NCBI GenBank assembly: GCA_933228675.1
Contig: OW121743.1
Coordinates: forward strand, 96,969,998-97,033,997
Source of the DNA: Stomorhina lunata
Taxonomy: Eukaryota; Arthropoda; Insecta; Diptera; Rhiniidae
Reading direction: 5' to 3'
DNA: 64,000 nucleotides
The position numbers and the translations under genes are program-made. Of the stretch, positions 8,020 through 62,536 are shown piece by piece (within the stretch, counting starts at the first letter, position 1; each line of letters opens with the position of its first letter). Below the pieces are notes generated by a model that saw only the letters and a program-made list of their open reading frames with translations, was not told where the DNA came from and made no database searches.

Positions 8020-10435
8020 TAAGACATATACTGAGACACAGACTAAGACATAGACTAAGACGTAGACTAAGACATAGACTAAGACATAGACTAAGACATA
8101 GACTAAGATATAGACTAAGACATAGACTAAGACATAGACTAAGACATAAACTAAGACATAGACCAAGACATAGACTAAGACATAGAATAAGACATAGACT
8201 AAGACATAAACTAAGATATAGACTAAGACATAGACTAGGACATAGACTAAGACATAGACTAAGACATAGACTAAGAAATAGACTAAGACATAGACTAAGA
8301 CATAGACTAAGACATAGACTAAGACATAGACTAAGACATGGACTAAGACATAGACTAAGACATAGACTAAGACATAGACTAAGACATAGACTAAGACATA
8401 GACTAAGACATACCTTAAGACATAGACTAAGACATAGACTAAGACATAGACTAAGACATAGACTAAGACATAGACTAAGACATGGACTAAGACATAGACT
8501 AAGACATAGACTAAGACATAGACTAAGACATAGACTAAGACATAGACTAAGACATAGACTAAGACATAGACTTAGACATAGACTAAGACATAGACTAAGA
8601 CATAGACTAAGACATAGACTAAGACATAGACTTAGACATAGACTAAGACATAGACTAAGACATAGACTAAGACATAGACTAAGACATAGACTAAGACATA
8701 GACTAAGACATAGACTAAGACACAGACTAAGACATAGACTAAGACATAGACTAAGACATAGACTAAGACATAGACTAAGACATAGACTAAGACATAGACT
8801 AAGACATAGACTAAGACATAGACTAAGACATAGACTAAGACATAGACTAAGACATAGACTAAGACATAGACTAAGACATAGACTAGGACATAGACTAAGA
8901 CATAGACTAAGACATAGACTAAGACATAGACTAAGACATAGACATAGACTAAGACATAGACTAAGACATAGACTAAGACATAGACTAAGACATAAACTAA
9001 GACATAGACTAAGACATAGACTAAGACATAGACTAAGACATAGACTAACATAGACTAAGACATTTACTAAGACATAGACTAAGACATAGACTAAGACATA
9101 GACTAAGACATAGACTAAGACATAGACTAAGACATAGACTAAGACATAGACTAAGACATAGACTAAGACATAGACTAAGACATAGACTAAGACATAGACT
9201 AACATAGACTAAGACATTTACTAAGACATAGACTAAGACATAGACTAAGACATAGACTAAGACATAGACTAAGACATAGACTAAGACATAGACTAAGACA
9301 TAGACTAAGACATAGACTAAGACATAGACTAAGACATAGACTAACATAGACTAAGACATTTACTAAGACATAGACTAAGACATAGACTAAGACATAGACT
9401 AAGACATAGACTAAGATATAGACTAAGACATAGACTAAGACATAGACTAAGACATAGACTAAGACATAGACTAAGACATAGACTAAGACATAGACTAAGA
9501 CATAGACTAAGACATAGACTAAGACATAGACTAAGACATAGACTAAGACATAGACTAAGACATAGACTAAGACATAGACTAAGACATAGACTAAGACATA
9601 GACTAAGATATAGACTAAGACATAGACTAAGACATAGACTAAGACATAGACTAAGACATAGACTAAGATATAGACTAAGACATAGACTAAGACATAGACT
9701 AAGACATAGACTAAGACATAGGCTAAGATATAGACTAAGACATAGACTAAGACATAGACTAAGACATAGACTAAGACATAGACTAAGACATAGACTAAGA
9801 CATAGACTAAGACATAGACTAAGACATAGACTAAGACATAGACTAAGACATAGACTAAGACATAGACTAAGACATAGACTAAGACATAGACTAAGACATA
9901 GACTAAGACATAGACTAAGACATAGACTAAGACATAGACTAAGACATAGACTAAGACATAGACTAAGACATAGACTAAGACATAGACTAAGACATAGACT
10001 AAGACATAGACTAAGACATAGACTAAGACATAGACTAAGACATAGACTAAGACATAGACTAAGACATAGACTAAGACATAGACTAAGACATAGACTAATA
10101 CATAGACTAAGACATAGACTAAGACATAGACTAAGACATAGACTAAGACATAGACTAAGACATAGACTAAGACATAGACTAAGACATAGACTAAGACATA
10201 GACTAAGACATAGAGTAAGACATGGACTAAGACATAGACTAAGACATAGACTACGACATAGACTAAGACATAGACTAAGACATAGACTAAGACATAGACT
10301 AAGACGTAGACTAAGACATAGACTAAGACATAGACTAAGACATAGACTAAGACATAGACTAACACATAGACTAACACATAGACTAACACATAGACTAACA
10401 CATAGACTAAGACATAGACTAACACATAGACTAAG
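8020..10435. repeat. 12-bp minisatellite array (GACATAGACTAA)
   Basis: About 200 tandem copies of GACATAGACTAA, mostly perfect. Because 12 is a multiple of three, the minus strand gives long frames reading (CLSL)n and (VYVL)n in different phases; these are artefacts of the period, not genes. Occasional 10- and 6-bp truncated units shift the frame. At the right end several units change to CACATAGACTAA just before the array stops at a SINE-like sequence. Confidence 0.98.
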
Positions 10436-10440
10436 ACAAT

Positions 10441-15803: not shown

Positions 15804-17602
15804 TTAGACATATACTAAGACATAGACTAAGACATAGACTAAGACATAGACTAAGACATAGACTAAGACATAGACTAAGACATAGACTAAGACATAGACT
15901 AAGACATAGACTAAGACATAGACTAAAACATCGACTAAGACATAGACTAAGACATAGACTAAGACATAGACTAAGACATAGACTAAGACATAGATTAAGA
16001 CATAGATTAAGACATAGACTAAGACATAGACTAAGACATAGACTTAGACATAGACTAAGACATAGACTAAGACATAGACTAAGACATAGACTAAGACATA
16101 GACTAAGACATAGACTAAGACATAGACTAAGACATAGACTAAGACATAGACTAAGACATAGACTAAGACATAGACTAAGACATAGACTAAGACATAGACT
16201 TAGACATAGACTAAGACATAGACTAAGATATAGACTAAGACATAGACTAAGACATAGACTAAGACATAGACTAAGACATAGACTAAGACATAGACTAAGA
16301 CATAGACTAAGACATAGACTAAGACATAGACTAAGACATAGACTAAGACATAGACTAAGACATAGACTAAGACATAGACTAAGACATAGACTAAGACATA
16401 GACTAAGACATAGACTAAGACATAGACTAAGACATAGACTAAGACATAGACTAAGACATAGACTAAGACATAGACTAAGACATAGACTAAGACATAGACT
16501 AAGACATAGACTAAGACATAGACTAAGACATAGACTAAGACATAGACTAAGACATAGACTAAGACATAGACTAAGACATAGACTAAGACATAGACTAAGA
16601 CATAGACTAAGACATAGACTAAGACATAGACTAAGACATAGACATAGACTAAGACATAGACTAAGACATAGACTAAGACATAGACTAAGACATAGACTAA
16701 GACATAGACTAAGACATAGACTAAGACATAGACTAAGACATAGACTAAGATATAGACTAAGACATAGACTAAGACATAGACTAAGACATAGACTAAGACA
16801 TAGACTAAGACATAGACTAAGACATAGACTAAGACATAGACTAAGACATAGACTAAGACATAGACTAAGACATAGACTAAGACATAGACTAAGACATAGA
16901 CTAAGACATAGACTAAGACATAGACTAAGACATAGACTAAGACATAGACTAAGACATAGACTAAGACATAGACTAAGACATAGACTAAGACATAGACTAA
17001 GACATAGACTAAGACATAGACTAAGACATAGACTAAGACATAGACTAAGACATAGACTAAGACATAGACTAAGACATAGACTAAGACATAGACTAAGACA
17101 TAGACTAAGACATAGACTAAGACATAGACATAGACATAGACTAAGACATAGACTAAGACATAGACTAAGACATAGACTAAGACATAGACTAAGACATAGA
17201 CTAAGACATAGACTAAGACATAGACTAAGACATAGACTAAGACATAGACTAAGACATAGACTAAGACATAGACTAAGACATAGACTAAGACATAGACTAA
17301 GACATAGACTAAGACATAGACTAAGACATAGACTAAGACATAGACTAAGACATAGACTAAGACATAGACTAAGACATAGACTAAGACATAGACTAAGACA
17401 TAGACTAAGACATAGACTAAGACATAGACTAAGACATAGACTAAGACATAGACTAAGACATAGACTAAGACATAGACTAAGACATAGACTAAGACATAGA
17501 CTAAGACATAGACTAAGACATAGACTAAGACATAGGCTAAGATGTAGACTAAGACATAGACTAAGATATAGACCAAGACACAGACTAAGACTAAGGCATA
17601 TA
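15804..17602. repeat. Second 12-bp minisatellite array (GACATAGACTAA)
   Basis: About 150 copies of the same 12-bp unit, in the same orientation, as the array at 8.0-10.4 kb. It is very homogeneous. The first units after the junction with the 31-bp array and the last units near 17,530-17,600 are more diverged. Minus-strand frames of 619 and 471 codons are products of the period. A few 6-bp slips (GACATAGACATAG) near 16,640 and 17,127 change the phase. Confidence 0.98.
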
Positions 17603-40190: not shown

Positions 40191-41647
40191 TAAAATCTTT
40201 CAAGAAAAGTCGATTAATCCCGAAATTTCAATTAGATTCAAGTTTTACACAATTCTCAACAACAGACCAAAAACAAAATTGCATAAGTATGTTAAGAAGT
40301 TGTAACTAAATAAAAAAATCAAAGTGAAATATATATCTCGCCATCACAAAACTAAAAAATTGTCCAAGGACAATAGTAAACTATGAATTTATTGTATATA
40401 TTATAATAAATAAATTCAACTTAATATCTTAATTGGAAAACTTATGCTGGATCTGTATTTATTTATGTAAAGGAGTATTTTTCTTTTCCTGTTGCATTTA
40501 ATAATAATGTAAGGACAAGGTCTTCTGTAAGAAGAGGCTGATGGTGAAACAGTATTCAAGGTTTTCATGTTTTATTCATCATTTCCGTATATACTCAGGA
40601 TACGGAAGACGAGTTATAACAAATACATGCAATTACAATACTCGAGGTTTCTTAGCAGGTGAATTAATTACAGAGCAGTTTCATTCGATTTTTTTAACTT
40701 ACTTTTTAATGTTGTAACTAGAAAATGCATTTGTCTCGTTTGTATGCTCTTATTTATTCCATTAATTTTAGTGTTTTTTTTTACAATAGATAGTCTTTGG
40801 TATTGTTCTGTTGACAGATGTTTCTTCGCCTGTATTCACAGCCATTGCCTTAAGGATTCATTGTTGTACTGAAGTAAATTCTATTTTATTACAAAATGTT
40901 GTTGGCATCGCTGAAGCCAAGAAGGAACGAAAGAGAATGAAAGAGAAAAAACACAAGAGCTTCTAAGGCTTAATGTTGCTACAGAATACAATGAAAACAA
41001 CTAAGATTGGAAGGCATTATCCCTTTGTTTACATAAATACTTAACACAGATACAACGATGTAACCAATACATATACAAGTAGGAAGTGACAACGAAAGGA
41101 AGTACCAACAAGAGTTTATTCTTAAGGAAATTCGAGCCAACTTGTTGATACAGACAAAAAATCTACTAATTTAAGTTTGAACTGTCCTTTCGAAAATAAA
41201 GAAACTTTAATGAAAAGCTAGCCATGACAGAGCAGAGTGTAAAATTGCTGCAGTTTAACACTCTTCTATTATTTTTGAAGAAATTGAATCAGCAGATTCA
41301 AAGGACATTAAAATTCTTTAATGGAAAAATAGTTTTTTTTAATCTATCTTTGTTGCCTTTAAGTATTTCTTTTTATACATTACTATTTGTATAGTTTTAT
41401 TTAGTTTAATTAAGAAAGTTAAAGGCTTCTATTTGAATTACAGTTTATTTTTTCTTGAAAGAAAAGATGCGTTTAAGATTACAAAAGTTAACTTTTTATA
41501 TTAAATTTACTTAGTAAAATGTTTTGAACTTAGTAGAAAGACTCAAGTGCAATATTTAGATCTATTTATAATAATTTTCAATATATTCTTTTGGAATATC
41601 TTAGTCTCTGAAAATTGTCTTTATTTAAGTAGTAGTAATGACTTAAG
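40191..41647. other. Unique intergenic stretch, no gene seen
   Basis: Contains a small perfect hairpin at about 40,587-40,612 (TTCCGTAT, 9-nt loop, ATACGGAA). No convincing coding exon, tRNA or TE terminus. The ATG at 41,547 opens a frame that runs into the 15-bp array; it is discussed separately. Confidence 0.5.
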
Positions 41648-44600
41648 TCGTCTGGACCATAGTCGTCTGGACTATAGTCATCTGGACTATAGTCGTCTGG
41701 ACTATAGTCGGCTGGACTATAGTCGTCTGGACTATAGTCGTCTGGACTATAGTCGTCTGGACTATAGTCGTCTGGACTATAGTCGTCTGGACTATAGTCG
41801 TCTGGACTATAGTCGTCTGGACTATAGTCGTCTGGACTATAGTCGTCTGGACTATAGTCGTCTGGACTATAGTCGTCTGGACTATAGTCGTCTGGACTAT
41901 AGTCGTCTGGACTATAGTCGTCTGGACTATAGTCGTCTGGACTATAGTCGTCTGGACTATAGTCGTCTGGACTATAGTCGTCTGGACTATAGTCGTCTGG
42001 ACTATAGTCGTCTGGACTATAGTCGTCTGGACTATAGTCGTCTGGACTATAGTCGTCTGGACTATAGTCGTCTGGACTATAGTCGTCTGGACTATAGTCG
42101 TCTGGACTATAGTCGTCTGGACTATAGTCGTCTGGACTATAGTCGTCTGGACTATAGTCGTCTGGACTATAGTCGTCTGGACTATAGTCGTCTGGACTAT
42201 AGTCGTCTGGACTATAGTCGTCTGGACTATAGTCGTCTGGACTATAGTCGTCTGGACTATAGTCGTCTGGACTATAGTCGTCTGGACTATAGTCATCTGG
42301 ACTATAGTCGTCTGGACTATAGTCGTCTGGACTATAGTCGTCTGGACTATAGTCGTCTGGACTATAGTCGTCTGGACTATAGTCGTCTGGACTATAGTCG
42401 TCTGGACTATAGTCGTCTGGACTATAGTCGTCTGGACTATAGTCGTCTGGACTATAGTCGTCTGGACTATAGTCGTCTGGACTATAGTCGTCTGGACTAT
42501 AGTCGTCTGGACTATAGTCGTCTGGACTATAGTCGTCTGGACTATAGTCGTCTGGACTATAGTCGTCTGGACTATAGTCGTCTGGACTATAGTCGTCTGG
42601 ACTATAGTCGTCTGGACTATAGTCGTCTGGACTAAAGTCGTCTGGACTAAAGTCGTCTGGACTATAGTCGTCTGGACTAAAGTCGTCTGGACTATAGTCA
42701 TCTGGACTATAGTCGTCTGGACTATAGTCGTCTAAACTAAAGTCGTCTGGACTATAGTCGTCTGGACTATAGTCGTCTGGACTATAGTCGTCTGGACTAT
42801 ATTCGTCTCGACTATAGTCGCCTGGACTACAGTCGCCTGGACTACATTCGTCTAGACTATAGTCGTCTGGACTATAGTCGTCTGGACTATAGTCGTCTGG
42901 ACTATAGTCGTCTGGACTAAAGTCGTCTGGACTAAAGTCGTCTGGACTATAGTCGTCTGGACTAAAGTCGTCTGGACTATAGTCATCTGGACTATAGTCG
43001 TCTGGACTATAGTCGTCTAAACTAAAGTCGTCTGGACTATAGTCGTCTGGACTATAGTCGTCTGGACTATAGTCGTCTGGACTATAGTCGTCTGGACTAT
43101 AGTCGTCTGGACTATAGTCGTCTGGACTATAGTCGTCTGGACTATAGTCGTCTGGACTATAGTCGTCTGGACTATAGTCGTCTGGACTATAGTCGTCTGG
43201 ACTATAGTCGTCTGGACTATAGTCGTCTGGACTAAAGTCGTCTGGACTAAAGTCGTCTGGACTATAGTCGTCTGGACTAAAGTCGTCTGGACTATAGTCA
43301 TCTGGACTATAGTCGTCTGGACTATAGTCGTCTAAACTAAAGTCGTCTGGACTATAGTCGTCTGGACTATAGTCGTCTGGACTATAGTCGTCTGGACTAT
43401 AGTCGTCTGGACTATATTCGTCTCGACTATAGTCGCCTGGACTACAGTCGCCTGGACTACATTCGTCTGGACTATAGTCGTCTGGACTATAGTCGTCTGG
43501 ACTATAGTCGTCTGGACTATAGTCGTCTGGACTAAAGTCGTCTGGACTAAAGTCGTCTGGACTATAGTCGTCTGGACTAAAGTCGTCTCGACTATAGTCA
43601 TCTGGACTATAGTCGTCTGGACTATAGTCGTCTAAACTAAAGTCGTCTGGACTATAGTCGTCTGGACTATAGTCGTCTGGACTATAGTCGTCTGGACTAT
43701 AGTCGTCTGGACTATAGTCGTCTGGACTATAGTCGTCTGGACTATAGTCATCTGGACTATAGTCGTCTGGACTATAGTCGTCTGGACTATAGTCGTCTGG
43801 ACTATAGTCGTCTGGACTATAGTCGTCTGGACTATAGTCGTCTGGACTATAGTCGTCTGGACTATAGTCGTCTGGACTATAGTCGTCTGGACTATAGTCG
43901 TCTGGACTATAGTCGTCTGGACTATAGTCGTCTGGACTATAGTCGTCTGGACTATAGTCGTCTGGACTATAGTCGTCTGGACTATAGTCGTCTGGACTAT
44001 AGTCGTCTGGACTATAGTCGTCTGGACTATAGTCGTCTGGACTATAGTCGTCTGGACTATAGTCGCCTGGACTATAGTCGTCTGGACTATAGTCGTCTGG
44101 ACTATAGTCGTCTGGACTATAGTCGTCTGGACTATAGTCGTCTGGACTATAGTCGTCTGGACTATAGTCGTCTGGACTATAGTCGTCTGGACTATAGTCA
44201 TCTGGACTATAGTCGTCTGGACTATAGTCGTCTGGACTATAGTCGTCTGGACTATAGTCGTCTGGACTATAGTCGTCTGGACTATAGTCGTCTGGACTAT
44301 AGTCGTCTAGACTATAGTCGTCTGGACTATAGTCGTCTGGACTATAGTCGTCTGGACTATAGTCGTCTGGACTATAGTCGTCTGGACTATAGTCGTCTGG
44401 ACTATAGTCGTCTGGACTATAGTCGTCTGGACTATAGTCGTCTGGACTATAGTCGTCTGGACTATAGTCGTCTGGACTATAGTCGTCTGGACTATAGTCG
44501 TCTGGACTATAGTCGTCTGGACTAAAGTCGTCTGGACTAAAGTCGTCTGGACTATAGTCGTCTGGACTAAAGTCGTCTGGACTATAGTCATCTGGACTAT

Positions 44601-44815
44601 AGTCGTCTGGACTATAGTCGTCTAAACTAAAGTAGTCTGGACTATAGTCGTCTGGACTATAGTCGTCTGGACTATAGTCGTCTGGACTATAGTCGTCTGG
44701 ACTATATTCGTCTCGACTATAGTCGCCTGGACTACAGTCGCCTGGACTACATTCGTCTGGACTATAGTCGCCTGGACTATAGTCATCTGGATTATAGTCG
44801 TCCTGACTAAAGCCG
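41648..44815 (+). repeat. 15-bp minisatellite array (ACTATAGTCGTCTGG)
   Basis: About 211 units of ACTATAGTCGTCTGG, strikingly homogeneous and much richer in GC than the flanks. Each unit holds the perfect 10-bp palindrome GACTATAGTC. Variant units (TCTAAACTAA at 42,731, 43,016, 43,331, 43,631 and 44,621; TATTCGTCTCG at 42,800, 43,415 and 44,705) recur at distances that are exact multiples of 15, showing higher-order block duplication. The period is a multiple of three, so the plus strand reads (SRLDY)n and the minus strand (TTIVQ)n. The array ends cleanly near 44,815. Confidence 0.98.
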
Positions 44816-45639
44816 TCTTTTCTATATAAAGCAAAACCAAATTTAACATTAAAATTCTGGAAATTGTTTCCTTTTTAAACACTAAAGTTCTTGATAAAGA
44901 AAATATTTTTGAAAACATATCTCCTTAAATTCTTTAAAATTTCTACAAATTAAAATTTTAAATCATAGAAAAAGTACTTGCCAAATCACAAATGAATCTA
45001 ATAGCTTCTGAAAAATACTCAGCTACCTGTTCTCGAAAAATCTATGTTAATTTTCTTGTGTAACAAAAATCTTATACAACAAAATTTACATAGAATTTCT
45101 AATAATCGAACGTATTCCTTGAATCATTGAGTTAATGTTTTTGTTAAACAAGCAACAAAAACAAAATACAGGAAAATTTGAAAATGTTTGATAATTCTTT
45201 AAGTGGCACTGACTTCAAGCACTTTCTGTATAAACCATCAACCTTCCGGAAAATTTAAAAGAATTAATGTGCATGAAAATTACATTTTTGCTTATTTTGT
45301 GAGTTCGTGTTGAATTAAAAAAGTTTTGTACGTTTAGGGTCTTTTCTTGATTGAAAGATTCTTTTGTTTGGATGTTTGTGTATTAAAAGTTGTCTCAAAA
45401 TTGTATAAAAGAAAATCTTATGTTATTGACAGGCATGAAAGTTATGTATAATATACATTTACCCAAATACTTCGTTCTATATAATAAAAAATTATAATGA
45501 TGTTAATTAATCAGAAAAAGTTATAAGCGAATTTTCATATTTTTAATTCTTAGTGGGGACAATTATGATAATCTCAACAGGTGAAAAACAGGCAAAAAAA
45601 AGTGCAAACATAAAATTCTTTATGTAATAAGGTAATGAC
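44816..45639. other. Spacer between inverted 15-bp arrays
   Basis: About 0.82 kb of unique AT-rich DNA with no recognisable gene. In a transcript crossing both arrays this would be the loop. Confidence 0.6.
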
Positions 45640-48240
45640 TTTAGTCTAGATTACTATAGTCCAGACGACTATAGGACAGACGACTATAGTCCAGACGACT
45701 AAAGTCCAGACGACTAAAGTCCAGACGACTATAGTCCAAACTACTGTATTCCAGACGACTATAGTCCAGATGACTACATTCCAGACGACTATGATCCAGA
45801 CGACTGTAGTCCGGGAGACTTTTCTTCAGACGACTATAGTCCAGACGACTACAGTCCAGACGACTATAGTCCAGACGACTATAGTCCAGACGACTATAGC
45901 ACAGACGACTATAGTCCAGACGACTATAGTCCAGACGACTATAGTCTAGACGACTATAGTCCAGACGACTATAGTCCAAACGACTTTAGTCCAGACGACT
46001 ATAGTCCAGACGACTATAGTCCAGACGACTATAGTCCAGACGACTATAGTCCAGACGACTGTAGTCCAGACGACTAAAGTCCAGACGACTATAGTCCAGA
46101 CGACTTTAGTCCAGACGACTTTAGACCAGATGACTTAAGTCCAGACGACTATAGTTTAGACGACTATAGTCCAGACAACTATAGTCCAGACGACTATAGT
46201 TTAGACGACTATAGTCCAGACGACTATAGTCCAGACGACTATAGTCCAGACGACTATAGTCCAGACGACTATAGTCCAGACGACTAAAGTCCAGACGACT
46301 ATAGTCTAGACGACATTAGTCCAGACGACTATAGTTTAGACGACTATAGTCCAGACAACTATAGTCCAGACGACTATAGTTTAGACGACTATAGTCCAGA
46401 CGACTATAGTCCAGACGACTATAGTCCAGACAACTACAGTCCAGACGCCTATAGTCCAGACGACTATAGTCCAGCAAACATAAAATTGTTTATGTAATAA
46501 GGTAATGACTTTAGTCTAGATGACTATAGTCCAGATGACTATAGCCCAGATGACTATAGTGCAGAAGACTAAAGTCCAGACGACTATAGTCCAGACAACT
46601 TTAGTGCAGACGACTATAGTCCAGACGACTATAGTTTAGACGACTATAGTCCAGACAACTATAGTCCAGACGACTATAGTCCAAACGACTATAGTCCAGA
46701 CGACTATAGTCCAGGCGACTATAGCCCAGACGACTATAGTCCAGACAACTATAGTCCAGACGACTATAGTCCAAACGACTATAGTCCAGACGACTATAGT
46801 CCAGGCGACTATAGCTCAGACGACTATAGTCCAGACAACTTAAGTCCAGACGACTACAGTCCAGACGACTATAGTCCAGACGACTATAGTCCAGACGATT
46901 ATAGTCAAGACGATTATAGTCAAGACGACTACAGTTTAGACGACTATAGTCCAGACGACTATAGTCGAGACGACTATAGTCTAGACGACTAAAGTCCAGA
47001 CGACTATAGTCCGGACGATTATAGTCCAGACGACTATAGTCCTGACGACTATAGTCCTGACGACTATAGTCCAGACGACTATAGTCCAGACGATTATAGT
47101 CCAGACGACTATAGTCCAGACGACTATAGTCCAGACGACTATAGTCCAGACGACTATAGTCCAGACGACTATATTCGAGACAACTATAGTCCAGACGACT
47201 ATAGTCCAGACGACTATAGTCCAGACGACTATAGTCCAGACGACTATAGTCCAGACGACTACAGTTCCGACGACTATAGTCCAGACGACTATAGTCCAGA
47301 CGACTATAATCCAGACGACTATAGTCCAGACAACTATAGTCGAGACGACTAAAGTCCAGACGACTAGAGTCCAGACGACTATAGTCCAGACGACTATAGT
47401 CCAGACGACTATAGTCCAGACGACTATAGTCCAGACGACTATAGTCCAGACGACTATAGTCCAGACGACTATAGTCCAGACGACTATAGTCCAGACGACT
47501 ATAGTCCAGACGACTATAGTCCAGACGACTATAGTCCAGACGACTATAGTCCAGACGACTATAGTCCAGACGACTATAGTTCAGACGACTATAGTCCAGA
47601 CGACTATAGTCCAGACGACTATAGTCCAGACGACTATAGTCCAGAAGACTATAGTCCAGACGAGTATAGTCCAGACGACTATAGTCCAGCAAACATAAAA
47701 TTGTTTATGTAATAATGTAATGACTTTAGTCTAGATGACTATAGTCCAGACGACTATAGTCGAGACGACTATAGTCCGGACGACTATAGTCCAGAAGACT
47801 ATAGTCCAGACGACTATAGTTCAGAAGACTATAATCCAGACGACTATAGTCCAGACGACTATAGTCCAGATGACTATAGTCCAGACGAATTTAGTTCAGA
47901 CGACTATAGTCCAGACGACTATAGTGCAGACGACTATAGTCCAGACGACTATAGTCCAGACGACTATAGTCCAGACGACTATAGTCCAGACGACTATAAT
48001 CAAGACGACTGTGTTAAAAACGACTATAATCCAGACGACTATAGTCCAGACGACTATACTCCAGACGACTATAGTCCAGACGACTATAGTCCAGACAACT
48101 ATAGTCCAGACGACTATAGTCCAGACGACTATAGTCCAGACGACTATAGTCCAGACGACTATAGTCCAGACGACTATAGTCCAGACGACTATAGTCCAGA
48201 CGACTATAGTCCAGACGACTATAGTCCAGAATACAGTTGG
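45640..48240 (-). repeat. 15-bp minisatellite array, reverse complement of 41.6-44.8 kb
   Basis: About 170 units of CCAGACGACTATAGT, the exact reverse complement of the preceding array, with more sequence variation. Two internal interruptions, at about 46,473-46,525 and 47,687-47,735, repeat the left flank of the array (GCAAACATAAAATTGTTTAT, then GTAATGACTTTAGTCTAGA; first seen at 45,603-45,650). So the array is three blocks, each starting with the same unique boundary. The long (SRLDY)n and (TTIVQ)n frames here are period artefacts. Confidence 0.97.
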
Positions 48241-50583: not shown

Positions 50584-50671
50584 AGTTTTCATTTATTAAA
50601 AAGAACAAATTTTTCAAAATTCTTTTTTTTAATTATTCTATAAAAATTTTTTCAATATAAAAATTGTTCTT

Positions 50672-50795
50672 AAAAAGGTTGTGTATTGCACTAAGATCCC
50701 AATTTATCATATTATATCTTTTTTCAAGGAACAGAATAAATAAGAATTATTGTGTCCAGCAACAGTCAATATAAAGCGAATATTTTGAGCTGAAC
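50672..50795. mobile_element. Fragment related to the hammerhead-bearing element
   Basis: TTGCACTAAGATCCCAATTT at about 50,687 is shared exactly with 56,210 and resembles the GCATTTGATCCCAAACC block of the 97-bp inverted repeat at 51,060. Farther right, AGAATAAATAAGAATTATTG resembles AGAACAAATACGAATTATAG near 58,461, next to the second ribozyme-like copy. A 27/28-bp array begins directly after it. Confidence 0.55.
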
Positions 50796-50814
50796 ATAAA
50801 CATTTTTCAGATTT

Positions 50815-51059
50815 TTTTCTTTAGAAAATTTTTTTATAAAAAATTTTTTTCTTTAGAAAATTTTTTTATAAAAAATTTTTTTATAAAAAATTTTTTTATC
50901 GAAAAATACAAACATTTTTCTAAAGAAAATTTTTTGTTAAAAAAAAATTTTCATTAAAAAAATTTATTTAAGAAAATTTTTCTACAGAATATATTTTGTT
51001 AAAAAAATTTTTCTATACAAAATGTTTTGTTAAAAAAATTTTTCTCTAAAAAATGTTTC
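50815..51059 (+). repeat. Degenerate AT-rich minisatellite (left part)
   Basis: Irregular copies of TTTAGAAAATTTTTTTATAA and TTGTTAAAAAAATTTTTCTA, the same family as the arrays that follow. It ends exactly where the inverted-repeat element starts. Confidence 0.75.
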
Positions 51060-51395
51060 TTCAAAAAGAAGTGTATTTGCATTTGATCCCAAACCTGTTA
51101 CATTTATTTATTAATGTAACAGATCAATTTATTGATAAAAAGCCAAAAAATGTTTGCGGAGAAACCAAATTCCTCGACGCGTTTCGATGGTTGGTTAAGC
51201 CATCTCTTCAGGAGGATTATCCCCAATTTAGACAGATCGAAAACCTCGCATTATTACTAAATTTACAAACATAACTATTAAGAATTATGTTCATAAACCA
51301 AACATTTTTTGGCTTTTTATCAATAAATTGATCTGTTACATTAATAAATAAATGTAACAGGTTTGGGATCAAATGCAAATACACTTCTTTTTGAA
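51060..51395. mobile_element. Element with perfect 97-bp inverted repeats and a hammerhead ribozyme
   Basis: Positions 51,060-51,156 and 51,299-51,395 are perfect inverted repeats (97 of 97 by my reading), separated by 142 bp. The interior carries a hammerhead ribozyme motif on the minus strand. A second copy of the outer sequence at 52,306-52,373 continues beyond the repeat end into GATGTAAATATTATT, also seen here at about 51,396-51,412, so the true element boundary lies outside the 97-bp repeat. No protein is encoded; the 73-codon frame at 51053-51274 merely reads through the repeat. Hammerhead motifs are known in the terminal repeats of Penelope-like elements and in metazoan retrozymes, so a non-autonomous relative of one of these is my inference. 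Confidence 0.8.
51161..51228 (-). ncRNA. Minimal type I hammerhead self-cleaving ribozyme
   Basis: Minus strand, in order: stem I strand TCCTC (51,216-51,212), core CTGAAGA (51,211-51,205; fits CUGANGA), stem II GATGG/CCATC (51,204-51,200 and 51,190-51,186) with a 9-nt loop, core GAAA (51,185-51,182), a tiny stem III within ACGCGT (51,182-51,177), cleavage triplet GTC (51,178-51,176), and stem I strand GAGGA (51,175-51,171). All conserved core bases are present. Stem I can extend through AATTT/AAATT past an 8-nt bulge. The predicted cut is after the C of GTC, between 51,176 and 51,175. The self-complementary ACGCGT stem III is what known minimal hammerheads that work as dimers show. Activity is not shown here. 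Confidence 0.75.
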
Positions 51396-51429
51396 TAATA
51401 TTTACATCCCGACTAATTATTTTTAAAAA

Positions 51430-52250
51430 ATGTTTCGTTAAGAAAAATTTCTATAGCAAATTTTTCGTTAAAAATATTTTCTGTAGGAAAAAAAGTTTTT
51501 CTATAGAAAATTTTTCGTTAACAAAAATTTTTCTATAGAAAATTTTTCGTTAAAAAAATTTTTCTATAGAAAATTTTCTGTAGGAAATTTTTCTATAGAA
51601 AATTTTTCGTTAAAAAAAAATTTTCTATAGAAAACTTTTCGTTAAAAAAAAAAATTGTTTAGAAAATTTTTCGTTAAAAAAAAATTTTTCTGTAGAAAAT
51701 TTTTCGTTAAAAAAAATTTTCTATAAAAAATTTTTCGTTAAAAAAAAATTTCTATAGAAAATTTTTCGTTAAAAAAAATTTTCTATAGAAAATTTTTCGT
51801 TAAAAAAAATTTCTATAGAAAATTTTTCGTTAAAAAAAATTTCTATAGAAAATTTTTCGTTAAAAAAAATTTTCTATAGAAAATTTTTCGTTAAAAAAAT
51901 TTTCTATAGCAAATTTTTCGTTAAAAAAATTTTCTATAGCAAATTTTTCGTTAAAAAAATTTTCTATAGCAAATTTTTCGTTAAAAAAATTTTCTATAGA
52001 AAAATTTTCGTTAAAAAAAAATTTTCTATAGAAAAATTTTCGTTAAAAAAAATTTTCTATAGAAAATTTTTCGTAAAAAAAAAAAAATTTCTAAAGAAAA
52101 TTTTTCGTTAAAAAAAAAATTTCTATTTTCGTTAAAAAAAATTTTCTGTAGAAAATTTTTAGTTAAAAAAATTTTCTATAGAAAATTTTCGTTTCAAAAA
52201 ATTTTGTATACAAAATTTTTCAAAAAGAAGAGCATTCTTTTAAAATAAAC
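51430..52250 (+). repeat. ~27-bp AT-rich minisatellite (CTATAGAAAATTTTTCGTTA)
   Basis: About 30 units reading CTATAGAAAATTTTTCGTTA followed by an A run and TTTT. The unit length varies between 26 and 31 bp because of the A run. The shared core TATAGAAAATTTTTCG is nearly invariant. It lies between the full hammerhead element and a fragment of it. Confidence 0.93.
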
Positions 52251-52305
52251 AAGTTTATATTAAAAATAAGCTGAATGCATGTAGTTTTATCAAAAAATAA
52301 CAAAA

Positions 52306-52373
52306 TAGTCAGGATGTAAATATTATTCAAAAAGAAGAGTATTCGCATTTGATCCCTAATCTGTTACATTTAT
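52306..52373. mobile_element. Truncated copy of the hammerhead element end
   Basis: AGGATGTAAATATTATTCAA, AAAGAAGAGTATTCGCATTT and GATCCCTAATCTGTTACATT match, with a few changes, the right flank plus inverted repeat of the element at 51,060-51,412 (read from its right end inward). It breaks off straight into TTTTCGTTAAAAAAATTTTC, the first unit of the next array block. Confidence 0.85.
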
Positions 52374-53070
52374 TTTCGTTAAAAAAATTTTCTATAGAAA
52401 ATTTTTCGTTAAAAAATTTTTCTATAGAAAAGTTTCCGTAAAAAAAATTTTCTATAGAAAATTTTTCATTAAAAAAACTTTTCTATAGAAAATTTTTCGT
52501 TAAAAAAATTTTTCTATAGAAAATTTTTCGTTAAAAAAATTTTTCTATAGAAAATTTTTCGTTAAAAAAAATTTTTTCTAAAGAAAATTTTTCGTTAAAA
52601 AAAGTTTTCTATAGAAAATTTTTCGTTAAAAAAAATTTTTCATTAAAAAAAAATTTTCTATAGAAAATTTTACGTTAAAAAAAATTTTCTATAGAAAATT
52701 TTACGTTAAAAAAAATTTTCTATAGAAAATTTTACGTTAAAAAAAATTTTTCTATAGAAAATTTTACGTTAAAAAAAAATTTTCTATAGAAAATTTTATG
52801 TTAAAAAAAAATTTTCTATAGAAAATTTTACGTTAAAAAAAACTTTCAATAGAAAATTTTACGTTGAAAAAAAATTTTCTATAGAAAATTTTACGTTAAA
52901 AAAGGTTTTCTGTAGAAAATTTTTTGTTAAAAATAAATTTCTATAGAAAATTTTTCGTTAAAAAAATGTTTCTATAGAAAATTTTTCGTTAAAAATATGG
53001 TTTCTGTAGAAAATTTTACTTTAAAAAAAATGTTTCTATAGAAAATTTTTCATTAAAAATTTTTCTGTGA
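52374..53070 (+). repeat. ~28-bp AT-rich minisatellite, continued
   Basis: About 25 units of the same family. From about 52,665 a sub-block uses ATTTTACGTTA in place of ATTTTTCGTTA, a variant that has spread over seven or more neighbouring units, which shows local homogenisation. It ends about 230 bp before the stop codon of the minus-strand gene. Confidence 0.93.
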
Positions 53071-53300: not shown

Positions 53301-53723
53301 TTATTTCTTGAAAAAACCGCTTCCAAGACCTCCAAATCCTCCTAAACCACCGCCAAAGCCACTAGAATAACTAGAGCTGGAGGAATAACTTGAAGAGTAA
53401 CCACTTCCAAGACCACCAAAACCGCTAGAATAACCTAATCCACCCAAACCCCCGTATAGACCAAGGTCATGTTTATGCCACCCGGTCTTAAAAGGAATAC
53501 CTACAGGTACTCCAACAGGGTAGGGTGCTGGTACAGGTATGGGTGTATGGACTGGTACTGGAACGGGTACTGCTACTGTTTTAATAATTGGCACTGGAAC
53601 AGGTTCCGGGAAGGGAACACCTACTGGATAAGGTAGACCAAAACTGACTTTCTTTATCCATGCATGTGAAGGGCCGCAACAGAGTACGAGGGTAAAGACG
53701 GCAACTGATAATTTTAAATTCAT
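53301..53723 (-). CDS. Secreted VPV- and GYS-rich protein, cuticle-like
   Basis: An intact 140-codon frame with clearly higher GC and protein-like codon use than its surroundings. The first 21 residues form a signal peptide (MNLKLSVAVFTLVLCCGPSHA, hydrophobic core VAVFTLVL, likely cut after SHA). Residues about 30-75 are Pro/Val-rich (PVPVP, VAVPVPVPV, TPIPVPAPYPVGVPVG). Residues about 88-137 are low-complexity G/Y/S (GGLGGLG, SGYSSSYSSSSSYSSG), ending FFKK. This layout fits structural secreted proteins of insect cuticle or eggshell; no chitin-binding Rebers-Riddiford consensus is visible, so the exact family is open. TTTCAG stands directly before the ATG on the coding strand, so a 5' intron or a short upstream exon is possible. 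Arrays flank it on both sides, and it is antisense to the presumed intron of the 49.56-kb gene. Confidence 0.85.
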   Translation of the reverse strand: MNLKLSVAVFTLVLCCGPSHAWIKKVSFGLPYPVGVPFPEPVPVPIIKTVAVPVPVPVHTPIPVPAPYPVGVPVGIPFKTGWHKHDLGLYGGLGGLGYSSGFGGLGSGYSSSYSSSSSYSSGFGGGLGGFGGLGSGFFKK

Positions 53724-53737
53724 CTGAAATGTAGGAA

Positions 53738-55015
53738 TGTTTGTTAAAGAAAATGTTTCTATAAAAATTTTTCGTTATAAAAAATTTGTTGTAATGATAT
53801 AAAATTTTTCCTATAGAAAATTTTTCGTTATAAAATTTTTTCTATAAAAATTTTTTCTATATAAAAGTTTGCTATAGATAATTTTTGTTACAAAAAGCTT
53901 TCTATAGGAAATATTTCGTAATAAAAATTTTCTATAAAAAAAATTTCGTTATAAATTTTTTTCAATAGAAATGTTTGGTTATTCAAATTTTTCAATAGAA
54001 CACTTTGGTTATAAATTATTTTCTATAGAAAATTTTCCGTTATAAATAACTTTTCGTTATAAAAATTTTTCCATAGAACATTTTTCGTTATAAAAAAGTT
54101 TCTACAGAAAATTTTTCGTTGTAAAAATGTTATAGAAAATTTTTAGTTGTAAAAATGTTATAGAAAATTTATCGTTGTAAAAATTTTTCAGTAAAAAAAT
54201 TTTTGGTTATAAAAAATTTTTCTATAGAAAATTTTTCATTATAAAAATTTTTCTTTAGATTTTTTTTCGTTATAAAAATTTTTTATTATTAAAATTTTTG
54301 TTATAAAAATTTTTCTATAGAAAATTTTTCGTTGTAAAAATTTTTCTATAGAAAGTTTTTCGTTATAAAAATTCTTTATAAAAATTTTTCTATAGAAAAT
54401 TTTTCGTTATAAAAATTTTTCTTTAGAAATTTTTACGTTATGAAAATTTCATCTATAGAAAATTTTTCGTTATAAAAATTTTTTTACAGAAAATTTTTAG
54501 TTACAAAAATTGTTCTGCAGAAAATTTTTCGTTGTAGAAATTTTTCTATAGAAAATTTTTCATTATAAAAATTTTTCTATAGAAAATTTTTCGTTATAAA
54601 AATTTTTCTATAGAAAATTTTTCTTTATAAAAATGTTTCTATAGAAAATTTTTCTTTATAAAAATATTTCTATAGAACATTTTTCTTTATAAACATTTTT
54701 CTTTAGAAAATTTTTCTTTATAAAAATTTTTCTCTAGAAAATTTTTCTTTATAAAAATTTTTCTATAGAAAATTTTTTTTTATAACATTTTTTTTAATGG
54801 AATTTTTTTGTTTTAAAAATGTTTCGTTAGAAAATTTATCGTTATTAATATTTCTATAGAAAATTTTTTCGTTATAAAAAAAAATTAAAAATTTGCGAAA
54901 AAATTTCTATGAACAAATTTTTATAACGAAAAAGTTTTCTATAGAAAAATTAATAACGAAAAATTTTATAAAGAAACATTTTTATAACAAAAAAATTTTA
55001 TTTTTGAAAATTTTC
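53738..55015. repeat. Degenerate 31-bp AT-rich minisatellite, switching orientation at its right end
   Basis: Irregular units reading TATAGAAAATTTTTCGTTAT followed by AAAAATTTTTC, most regular between 54,290 and 54,780. A sub-block near 54,620-54,780 uses TTCTTTATAAA instead of TTCGTTATAAA. From about 54,890 to 55,015 the sense flips (TTTTTATAACGAAAAAGTTT and AATAACGAAAAATTTTATAA). It begins about 15 bp upstream of the start codon of the minus-strand gene, so any core promoter for that gene lies inside or beyond array DNA. Confidence 0.88.
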
Positions 55016-56206: not shown

Positions 56207-56240
56207 ATGTTGCACTAAGATCCCAATTTATTATAATTAT
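56207..56240. mobile_element. Short fragment related to the hammerhead element
   Basis: TTGCACTAAGATCCCAATTT is identical to the sequence near 50,687. As there, it lies immediately left of an AT-rich minisatellite array, here starting about 30 bp to the right. Confidence 0.55.
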
Positions 56241-56267
56241 TTATAACTGTAATACAATTTTTTTTTT

Positions 56268-58365
56268 TAATAGAAAATTTTTCGTTATAAAAATTTTTCT
56301 AGAAAAAAATTATTCGTTATAAAAATTTTTCCTAGAAAAAAATTTTTCGTTATAAAAATTTTTCTATAGAAAATTTTACGTTATAAAAAGTTTACTTTAG
56401 AAAAGTTTTCTACAAAAAATTTTTCATTATCAAAATTTTCTAGTTACAAAAATTTTTTTATAGAAAATTTTTCGTTATAGAAATTTTTCAATACAAAAAT
56501 TTTTCGTTATTAAAATTTTACATATAAAAAAATTTTTCGTTATAAAAATGTTTCTAAAGAAAATTTTTCGTTATAAAAATTTTACTTTAGAAAATTTTTC
56601 TACAAAAAATTTTTCATTATAAAAATTTTCTAGTTACAAAAATTTTTCTATAGAAAATTTTTCATTATAAAAATGTTTTTATAGAAAATTTCGTTATAAA
56701 AATATTTTTCTGTTTCGTTATAAAAATTTTTCTATAGAAAATTTTTAGTTATAAAAATTTTTCTGTAGAAAATTTTTCATTGTAAAAATGTTTTTATAGA
56801 AAATTTAGTTATAAAAATATTTTTATGTTTCGTTATAAAAATTTTTCAATAAAAAATTTTTCGTTATAAAAATTTTTCTATAGAAAATTTTTCGTTATAA
56901 AAATTTTTCTATAAAAAATTTTTCGTTATAAAAATTTGTCTATAGAAAATTTTTCGTTATAAAAATTTTTCTATAGAAAATTTTTCGTTATAAAAATTTT
57001 TCTATAGAAAATTTTTTTTGTTATAAAAATTTTTCTATAGAAAATTTTTTTTGTTATAAAAATTTTTCTATAGAAAATTTTTCGTTATAAAAATTTTTCT
57101 ATAGAAAATTTTCCGTTATAAAAATTTTTCGTTGTAAAAATTTTTCTATAGAAAATTTTTCGTTATAAAAATTTTTTTATAGAAAATTTTTCGTTATAAA
57201 AATTTTTCTATAGAAAATTTTTCGTTATAAAAATTTTTCTATAGAAAATTTTTCGTTATAAAAATTTTTCTATAGAAAATTTTTCGTTATACAAATTTTT
57301 CTATAGAAAATTTTTCGTTATAAAAATTTTTCTATAGAAAATTTTTCGTTATAAAAATTTTTCTATAGAAAATTTTTCGTTATAAAAATTTTTCTATAGA
57401 AAATTTTTCGTTATAAAAATTTTTCTATAGAAAATTTTTCGTTATAAAAATTTTTCTATAGAAAATTTTTCGTTATAAAAATTTTTCTATAGATAATTTT
57501 TCGTTATAAAACTTTTTCTATAAAAAATTTTTCGTTATAAAAATTTTTCTATAGAAAATTTTGCGTTATAAAAATTATTCTATAAAAAATTTTTCGTTAT
57601 AAAAATTTGTCTATAGAAAATTTTTCGTTATAAAAATTTTTCTATAGAAAATTTTTCGTTATAAAAATTTTTCTATAGAAAATTTTTCGTTATAAAAATT
57701 TTTCGTTATAAAAATTTTTCTATAGAAAATTTTTCGTTATAAAAATTTTTCTATAGAAAATTTTTCGTTATAGAAAATTTTTCTATAGACAATTTTTCGT
57801 TAAACAAATTTTTCTATAGTAAATTTTTCGTTATAAAAATTTTTCTATAGAAAATTTTTCGTTATAGAAAATTTTTGTATAGATAATTTTTCGCTATACA
57901 AATTTTTCTATAGAAAATTTTTCGTTATAAAAATTTTTCTATAGAAAATTTTTCGTTATAAAAATTTTTCTATAGAAAATTTTTCGTTATAAAAATTTTT
58001 CTATAGAAAATTTTTCGTTACAAAAATATTTCTATAGAAAATTTTTCGTTATAAAAATTTTTCTATGGAAAATTTTTCGTTATAAAAATTTTTCTATAGA
58101 AAATTTTTCGTTATAAAAATTTTTCTATAGAAAATTTTTCGTTATAAAAATTTTTCTATAGAAAATTTTTCGTTACAAAAATATTTCTATAGAAAATTTT
58201 TCGTTACAAAAATTTTTCTATAGAAAATTTTTCGTTATAAAAATTTTTCTATAGAAAATTTTTCGTTATAAAAATTTTTCTATAGAAAATTTTTCGTTAT
58301 AAAAATTTTTCTATAGAAAATTTTTCGTTATAAAAATTTTTCTATAGAAAATTTTTCCTTACAAA
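56268..58365 (+). repeat. 31-bp minisatellite array (core TATAGAAAATTTTTCGTTAT)
   Basis: About 67 units, very regular from 56,850 onward. Each unit is CTATAGAAAATTTTTCGTTA plus TAAAAATTTTT. Earlier units (56,270-56,840) are diverged, with two repeats of a block containing TTTTCTAGTTACAAAA (near 56,436 and 56,627). The right end runs directly into the second, decayed ribozyme-like fragment. Confidence 0.97.
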
Positions 58366-58510
58366 AAATGTCGATGTTCGGTTAGGCCATCATTAGGAGG
58401 AGTATCCCCAATTCGTGATAGCACGAAAACCATGCATAATATTTATCTAACTTGAGAGATAGAACAAATACGAATTATAGTGATTCTACAAGTAGATATA
58501 AATTTATAAT
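58366..58510. mobile_element. Decayed copy of the hammerhead element interior
   Basis: TCGATGTTCGGTTAGGCCAT, GGAGGAGTATCCCCAATT and CACGAAAACCATGCATAAT correspond block by block to the element interior at 51,183-51,252. On the minus strand the ribozyme core is broken: CTGANGA reads CTAATGA and the GAAA box reads CGAC, so this copy should not cleave. Farther right it continues with AGAACAAATACGAATTATAG, shared with the fragment near 50,740. Confidence 0.75.
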
Positions 58511-60882: not shown

Positions 60883-62536
60883 CTATCTATTCTTGGCGGC
60901 GTTCAATAGGGTTCTTTCCTCACGGTAACCGGTCCAGTCTTGGATATTTTTCAGCCATGAAGTTTCTTTTCTGCCTCTGGCAGGTCTTCCTTGAATTTTT
61001 TCTTTGAAAATTGTTTGTATGAGATGTTATTTATCGTTTCTCATAATGTGTCCCAATTATGAAATTTTTCTGGATTTAATTGTCCTTATTAATTCTCGAG
61101 CTACATGCATTCTCCTTAGGACTTCGTCATTGGTGACTCGATCTGTCCATGGTATTTTCAGAATTCTCCTATATATCCACATTTCAAATGCCTCTAGTTT
61201 CTTTTCATCAATGGCTTTAATTGTCCATGTTTCTGCTGCATATAATAAGATCGACCAAATATAACATTTCACGAATCTGATTTTTGTTTGAAGGCCGATG
61301 TCATGACTAGCTAAAATTTTTGAGTATTTGAAAAAAGCTTCCCTCGCCATCTCTATACGGCACCGTATTTCATTTGATATGTCCCATTGGTCATTTATTA
61401 AAACTCCCAAGTATTTAAGTATTTTTTACTTTTTCAATTTCTGTGTTATGAATTTTTAATGTTGTGTTGTTGTATATATTTTTCCTGCTAACAATCATGT
61501 ATTTTGTCTTTTTAGTATTAATTTTTAGGCCATATGATTTACTCACAACTGTAAGTTTGTCTGCTAATTTTTGTAGTCCACATATACTGCTCGCCAGTAG
61601 CGTGGTATCGTCTGCATATCGTATATTATTCATAAGAACTCCATTTGTTCGTATTCCTATTCTTTCATTGTCAACAGCTTCCAGGAATATTCTTTGGGAG
61701 TAAATATTGAATAAAAGGGGAGAAAGTATACATCCCTGCCTTACACCTCTTGAGATAACTATTTCATCAGTGAGTTCTCCATTCACATCAATGCGCGCTG
61801 TTTGGTTCCAGTAGAGATTTTCAATGTACCGTATTTCCTTTCCGTCTATGCCAATTGATATTAAAATTTCTATGACCTTGTTATGTTGGACAGTGTCAAA
61901 GGCTTTTTCATAGTCGATGAAACACAGAAAGACATCTTTTTGCACATCACGGCAATTTTGGACCAATACTTGGATACTAATAAGTGCTTCTCGAGTACCC
62001 ATTCCTTCCTTGAAGCCAAATTGCGACGTTCCCATATACATTTCACATTTAGCGTATATTCTTCTGTGAATTATTCTTAAAAATATTTTCAATGCGTGGC
62101 TCATTAGGCTTATGAGTCTATATTCTTCGCATTTTCTTGCATTTGTCTTTTTCGGTATGGTGATAAAATTCGATTTTAGTCAGTCTAGCGGGTATTGACC
62201 AGTATCATAAATATAATTAAAAAGTGTCGCTAAAAGTTCTATATATTCACCATCTATTAATTTTAAAATTTCTGAGGGAATTTCATCGGTACCTGTTGCT
62301 TTTTTGTCTTTTAGTGAATTTATTGCATATTCTACCTCGTCTCTATTTATTCATGTATCTGTCAAAGCATATTGGCTTCTATCATATAACGATCTTCCTT
62401 CATCTGTAAACATCTTTGTTACATAGTCACTTTTACTTAAGTGCAGTATTTTGTATATATTTTCCATCCCTGGTTTGGAATCATCCGTCTGATACATCAA
62501 AATATTTAAATTTTTTCTTTTACGCATTTTGCACAT
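60883..62536 (-). pseudogene. Broken RTE-like non-LTR retrotransposon reverse transcriptase
   Basis: The minus strand encodes a LINE reverse transcriptase. Recognisable pieces are PKKTNARKCEEYRLISL, GFKEGMGTREAL, the palm motif LCFIDYEKAFDTVQH, SRGVRQGCILSPLLFN, the catalytic NIRYADDTTLLA, a KINTKKTKY thumb-side block, and the C-terminal ETWTIKAIDEKKLEAFEMW, RRILKIPWTDR and GRPARGRKETSWLKNIQDW. This order resembles RTE/BovB-type elements. It cannot be made as one protein: in-frame stops lie at 62,351-62,353 and 62,180-62,182 (TGA, both where W is expected), an 8-bp tandem duplication at 61,409-61,424 shifts the frame, and two TAA codons follow (61,057-61,059 and about 61,027), replacing Y. 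The frame ends at TAG 60,883-60,885. The endonuclease half is absent, so the copy is 5'-truncated near 62,540, as is usual for LINEs. Confidence 0.93.

Follow-up and report, generated by a model that had tools for sequence, protein, structure and literature searches.

The window analysed, a 64,000-nucleotide stretch of DNA corresponding to C10:96969998-97033997 of a fly genome of 728,027,400 bases, harbored a type I-like hammerhead motif on the minus strand at 51171..51216. This motif was located within a copy of a repeat designated unit A (51057..51302, minus strand), which consisted of unit positions 339-465 followed by positions +1 to approximately +116 after the predicted cut and which pointed outward with a short 3' end. 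Another copy of unit A (51299..51423, plus strand; positions 20 to approximately 149, with a small gap) was arranged head to head with the former, with a 4-nt overlap at 51299-51302, and faced outward with a long, tailed 3' end; its right border was placed, by inference, at a repeated target word. This 13-bp word, TAAAAAATGTTTC, was found on the plus strand at 51047..51059 and again at 51424..51436, and it was read as a target-site duplication. The other copies were all on the minus strand. A unit A fragment (52238..52375) and a short fragment resembling a related unit, B (56210..56266), stopped before the hammerhead. A decayed B-like copy (58369..58478) had a broken core and ended after GACA at the start of a tandem array. 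A further B-like copy (50668..50823, approximate borders) seemingly had no hammerhead segment, the deletion being judged by eye; its alignment score was 121, and the best of 200 shuffles reached 61.5. Arrays of approximately 31-bp AT-rich repeats (AAAATTTTTCTATAGAAAATTTTTCGTTA-like) at 51425-53059, 53798-54879 and 56263-58367 bordered hammerhead copies.

The minus-strand letters from 51216 to 51171 were TCCTC CTGAAGA GATGG CTTAACCAA CCATC GAA ACGCGT C|GAGGA. Stem I was formed by TCCTC/GAGGA and stem II, closed by a 9-nt loop, by GATGG/CCATC; stem III comprised only 2 bp, within the self-complementary ACGCGT. As expected for a type I hammerhead, CUGANGA, GAA and UH followed one another in this order together with stems I-III. 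All of the fixed core bases of the hammerhead, on which the Rfam model agrees, were present, and N7 was A. The cut was predicted after C17, between 51176 and 51175, which is where the preliminary description had placed the RNA ends. Exact cores whose stems I and II each reached 5 bp or more were found once in the window and 3 times in 5,804 dinucleotide-shuffled windows. This exceeds chance for a single window, but it corresponds to approximately 6 motifs expected by chance per 728-Mb genome. Therefore, the window motif alone was no proof of a ribozyme.

The covariance score spoke against the motif by a refuting condition of the preliminary description, namely a score below threshold. No Rfam family reached its threshold in the whole window, and the 9 weak matches in a 360-nt region did not include the hammerhead. 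When a 48-nt cut-out of the motif was scored with Hammerhead_1 (RF00163), 23.1 bits were obtained against a gathering score of 34, and the hammerhead of subfamily B scored 22.0 bits against the same cut-off. The hammerhead fold predicted for the window copy had an energy of -10.2 kcal/mol versus -11.4 kcal/mol for the optimum, with pairing probabilities of 0.19 for stem II and 0.11 for stem I. For unit A, the predicted probabilities were 0.14-0.36 for stem II and 0 for stem I (in the L170 copy, one stem I pair was broken). For subfamily B, stem II was dominant (approximately 0.9), and stem I was predicted at 0.05-0.35.

The case was decided by the genomic copies. The genome was searched for exact matches to CTGANGA-GATGG-N9-CCATC-GAAAC, with the reversed pattern as a control. 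At least 2,000 forward and 1,976 reverse matches (at least 3,976) to the core and stem II were found, whereas the control gave 0, and pure chance was rejected on this basis. Because the motif recurred exactly in thousands of copies, the hammerhead was accepted despite its weak individual score: it is genuine as an encoded motif, as the preliminary description had maintained of its intact core, although the window alone would have left the matter undecided. Positions were available for 100 of the exact-core matches. The loci L141-L170 contained 31 distinct hammerhead sites, after overlapping loci (L144, L150, L152, L153, L158 and L159) had been merged with their neighbours; N7 was A in 22 sites and T in 9, and stem I, ACGCGT and C17 were also intact in 24 of the 31. 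Genomic matches to a 34-nt sequence that precedes the hammerhead, with up to 3 mismatches allowed, numbered 1,205 + 1,186, and the control gave 0.

A sample chosen without regard to the motif (264 kb; the window and L121-L140) provided a view of the decayed copies. In this sample, 14 copies or fragments were recognised, 8 of which bore the hammerhead segment; it had been lost from 3 and was not reached by the remaining 3. Only one of the 8 segment-bearing copies, that of the window, had an intact hammerhead. Considering the thousands of intact cores elsewhere, it could be concluded that this is a large family, most copies of which have decayed. These cores and the identical tandem units at L149-L153 favor recent activity, and of the earlier proposal that the element makes, or recently made, self-cleaved RNA, it is this part that we retain. 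No relatives of the element were found in viral contigs.

Units were delimited at the predicted cleavage site of head-to-tail copies. Unit A was 465 nt long (L170; GC 32%), and unit B was 488 nt long (L153; GC 31%). Arrays had periods of 488 and 465, one for each subfamily. Two of them, at C1:2809921-2812170 (L149-L153) and at C1:41026632-41028585, the latter known from match positions only, had the same form, with three minus-strand units followed by two plus-strand units. The plus-strand array at L150 began within ACGCGTC, the word of stem III, at a distance of 6 nt or marginally more ahead of the cut. Neither unit contained a coding frame longer than 85 aa, even when two joined units were considered. 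Because an open reading frame for a reverse transcriptase with a GIY-YIG endonuclease was lacking from both, A and B can be at most non-autonomous relatives of Penelope-like elements (PLEs).

The units were approximately 66% identical overall (325 of 494 alignment columns, with gaps counted as differences). Across the hammerhead, identity was 90% (37 of 41), and in five bins from +41 to 400 it ranged from 49 to 69%. When 13 copies were aligned, RNAalifold recovered stems I and II unprompted, together with a stem-loop at approximately +52 to +83. In the window, this stem-loop (CTGTTACATT..AATGTAACAG) was located at 51095..51122 on the minus strand, +54 to +81 past the cut, with compensatory changes between the subfamilies. 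Three of its pairs were exchanged on both sides among the 13 copies, and 96.5% of the pairing cells could pair, compared with 92.8% after shuffling. Its covariation score was 0.177, against 0.120 for shuffled alignments (none of 500 reached 0.177) and at most 0.075 for a slid control. Two of the five measures did not exceed the shuffles, namely, the double-change pairs (3 versus 2.6) and the pair types (13 versus 14.8). Since the exchanges mostly separated A-like from B-like copies, few underlying events were involved. In stems I and II, covariation, the lack of which the preliminary description had named as a refuter, was not seen in the copies surveyed. No compensatory changes were found in the hammerhead stems of the 13 copies, in which these stems were nearly invariant, and when the whole genome was searched for copies with both bases of one stem II pair changed, 0 were found; the compensation lay in the neighbouring stem-loop. 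The hammerhead stems showed conservation rather than covariation.

The 5' ends of the copies were variable, and the 3' ends fell at two fixed sites per subfamily: in unit A, a short end at approximately +116 after the cut (...CTTCTTTTTG) and a long end at approximately +150 (...CCCGACTATTTTGTTATTTTTTG); in unit B, ends at approximately +118-123 and +162. These genomic ends point to two adjacent start sites of reverse transcription, resembling those of PLEs with their optional tail of 30-40 bp. The 3' ends were classed by a sequence marker and by eye, and chance anchors found by the marker search were left out. Marker calls were overruled by eye at L124, L151 (the plus copy, overlapping duplicates included) and L154 (331), which were read as short, and at L164, which looked long with an internal deletion.

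Eleven outward-facing pairs were counted (L143, L149-153, L154, L155, L157, L162, L166, L167, L170, the window and L147), and 10 of them combined one short with one long 3' end. The pair at L147:1270-1660 joined a short end to a 3' end that matched neither usual site and lay at unit position 198, past the long site. If the two ends were independent, at least 10 unequal pairs of 11 would be expected with a probability of approximately 0.006 at even odds, and 10 of 10 with a probability of 0.0003-0.001; for this calculation, 10 single copies (one of them doubtful) were tallied as short and 5 as long. By reading, roughly 11 single copies had a short end and 8 a long one, L132 and L164 being doubtful. 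The two flanks shared a word of 12 nt or longer in 6 of the 11 pairs versus 7 of 110 cross-locus flank pairings. The cleanest target-site duplication was that of L151, AAATCGATTTAT; individual calls at other loci were unsafe owing to AT-rich repeats. Many genomic copies were located inside AT-rich repeats like the approximately 31-bp arrays of the window, which may therefore be a preferred target.

Because the 3' ends were fixed and the flank word was repeated, the inverted repeat of the window was identified as the left and right copies of unit A lying head to head. The inverted repeats that the preliminary description had reported do exist, but they are better understood as two outward-facing copies, one of which bears a PLE-like tail, within a target word present on both sides than as a single inverted-repeat element. 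Such an element, for example a MITE or foldback DNA transposon with terminal inverted repeats in which the hammerhead is incidental, was suggested by the two 100-nt arms, 99% alike, around a 142-nt centre and by the 13-bp word repeated outside them. It appears very improbable: the arm is the portion of the unit downstream of the hammerhead, head-to-tail tandem units exist, the 5' ends vary while the 3' ends are fixed, and 13 of the 24 main insertions at L141-L170 had no inverted partner (10 had one, and 1 was unclear). A transposon of this type was rejected because constant terminal inverted repeats were not found, partnerless copies and variable 5' ends being present instead. The head-to-head pairs could also have arisen by twin priming if the units were non-LTR retrozymes moved by a LINE. 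ORF-less tandem units of low GC content with type I hammerheads and target duplications of more than 4 bp do fit the retrozymes described in PMC7229834, and the window contains a reverse transcriptase frame (RVT_1). However, an inverted pair had a 3' start site at each of its outer borders, the two being of different kinds, a pattern that LINE twin priming does not predict, and the spacing of these sites, 33-40 nt, resembles the PLE tail. Mobilisation by a LINE is accordingly considered unlikely, and twin priming was rejected as the sole source of inverted copies since both outer ends were start sites.

A different doubt concerns the hammerhead itself, which might be a relic or a chance match with no catalytic role in a family that spread by other means. 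The sub-threshold Rfam scores, the absence of covariation in its own stems and the unfavourable fold are in agreement with this possibility, as is the finding that insertion by a lizard PLE in vitro did not require hammerhead cleavage (PMC11167929). On the other hand, the hammerhead was the best conserved part of units that are otherwise approximately 66% alike, and thousands of copies retained an intact core. Moreover, hammerhead-like motifs with other stems were present at PLE loci in this genome. A hammerhead devoid of catalytic function thus seems rather unlikely, if not as improbable as a foldback transposon.

The PLEs of this genome were also studied. A Pfam search for GIY-YIG returned two loci, L171 and L172. 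The gene at L171, which is adjoined by a Med31 gene, we take to be SLX1-like, and L172 we take for a PLE; the Med31 neighbour and the make-up of the genome point to an animal host, probably a fly. The GIY-YIG domain of L172 was searched in the genome and gave at least 150 scored copies, of which 11 lay within open frames of 830-864 aa. Complete autonomous PLEs are therefore likely to be present, the frames being known here from the GIY-YIG domain. Hammerhead-like motifs were found in the pLTRs at L172:2021-2061 (GTCC-CTGAAGA...GAAATATT|GGAC) and L173:292-334 (AATCC-CTGATGA...GAAACGTC|GGATT). Both were minimal, and their stem sequences were wholly different from those of A and B. Rfam gave no match to the L173 motif, and for seven loci it returned only miRNA-model matches, on a palindrome of L172. 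Among the loci read, no PLE frame joined to an A or B unit was found, and the PLE copies at C1:1.086 and 5.860 Mb had no neighbour among the 100 exact-core places listed. Comparison of the units with the pLTRs of L172 and L173 revealed no convincing likeness; the best E values, 1.6e-4 and 0.008, came from AT-rich stretches.

The architecture of the insertions was compared with that of known PLEs. A typical Penelope insertion, as described in PMC3846280, consists of direct pLTRs and an adjacent inverted pLTR; the example there has a 9-bp target duplication, and a 31-bp tail is optional on one inverted pLTR. Both strands are cut and extended by a PLE protein, and reverse transcription begins at either of two internal positions separated by the length of the tail; in vitro, the strands were not seen to differ in start site, and hammerhead mutants were still inserted (PMC11167929). 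In the same study, the hammerhead cut lay 26 nt inside the ORF and reverse transcription began 111-118 nt inside it, from which a start 85-92 nt past the cut can be worked out for PAc of Anolis; in the fly units, this distance is approximately 116 nt. Penelope/Poseidon PLEs (PAc of Anolis and Pen2a of Adineta vaga) have several features in common with the fly units (PMC3846280, PMC11167929): the hammerhead lies in a terminal part that is repeated, the units occur in tandem, an inverted pLTR is adjacent, the target duplication is short, a tail of 30-40 bp is optional on one side, reverse transcription starts beyond the hammerhead on its downstream side, and the targets are AT-rich. Unlike these PLEs, the fly units encode no protein, the stem III element ACGCGT of A and B is slightly longer than the ACGT of L173, and exact cores (at least 3,976) outnumber scored GIY-YIG copies (at least 150).

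The units were also compared with metazoan retrozymes. Cervera and de la Pena 2020 (PMC7229834) describe tandem units of 150-450 bp with type I hammerheads. These non-LTR retrozymes resemble the fly family in being ORF-less, low in GC content and present in thousands of copies, and those of the mussel have two ribozyme families, as in the fly. The fly units are longer (465-488 bp). According to the same paper, retrozymes and PLEs have so far been kept apart, with PLEs named as strong candidates for the mobilisation of retrozymes but merely suspected of it; the ends of the fly units bear a PLE-like signature. Thousands of intact cores in units with PLE-type ends make the link between the two groups testable. 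The kinship with both that had been proposed for the locus was supported. The newt satellite hammerhead is likewise a type I hammerhead in a DNA repeat and is dimeric with a shared, elongated helix III (PMC6155905). The repeats differ, but the self-complementary ACGCGT could allow a dimer in the fly as well. The type III hammerheads of Drosophila pseudoobscura, Musca, Rhagoletis and Hermetia, although also found in flies, have larger helices and differ from A and B in motif and element (PMC7936874). The open-access PMC literature yielded no account of type I hammerhead retrozymes from flies, and in the main text of PMC7229834 the word 'insect' occurs once.

Taken together, the window most probably contains a single insertion of a retroelement that is small, devoid of ORFs and very numerous, bears a type I-like hammerhead and is copied by Penelope-like machinery; we assign this reading a probability of roughly 0.8. 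The element is best regarded as a non-autonomous, retrozyme-like relative of PLEs, whose cleavage, circular RNA and mobilising protein are predictions from the sequence. Multi-unit transcripts, with 465 or 488 nt per unit, would fold one hammerhead per unit and would cut themselves at C17|G1.1, yielding RNA of unit length that could then circularise. A PLE reverse transcriptase/GIY-YIG endonuclease, presumably supplied by the GIY-YIG PLEs of the genome itself, would bind this RNA downstream of the hammerhead and cut AT-rich DNA. Reverse transcription would be primed at one of the two internal sites (approximately +116 or +150 in A; approximately +118-123 or +162 in B). In many cases, both target strands would be extended, one from each start site, which would leave a pair of copies lying head to head between the two repeats of a short duplication, the form found in the window. 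A two-copy insertion of the PLE type would account for the origin of such inverted-repeat 'elements', and the rule of one short and one long end is a constraint for any model of PLE integration. More tentatively, and with odds that we put slightly below even, animal type I hammerhead retrozymes in general might be non-autonomous PLEs whose enzyme primes both target strands and uses the near and the far start site once each, so that the one-sided tail would be built into double target-primed reverse transcription.

Several features of the window lay outside the hammerhead copies. Long arrays of 12-bp or 15-bp units at 8020-10438, 15806-17591, 41646-44818 and 45637-48230 were open in several frames; they are satellites rather than genes. 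The open frame at 61415-62179 on the minus strand contained a reverse transcriptase domain (RVT_1, E 7e-38) and is perhaps a LINE fragment. A 156-aa frame at 53301-53774 on the minus strand, for which Pfam gave no match, was rich in Pro/Val and Gly/Ser and had a signal-like start; we take it to resemble an insect secreted or cuticle-type protein.
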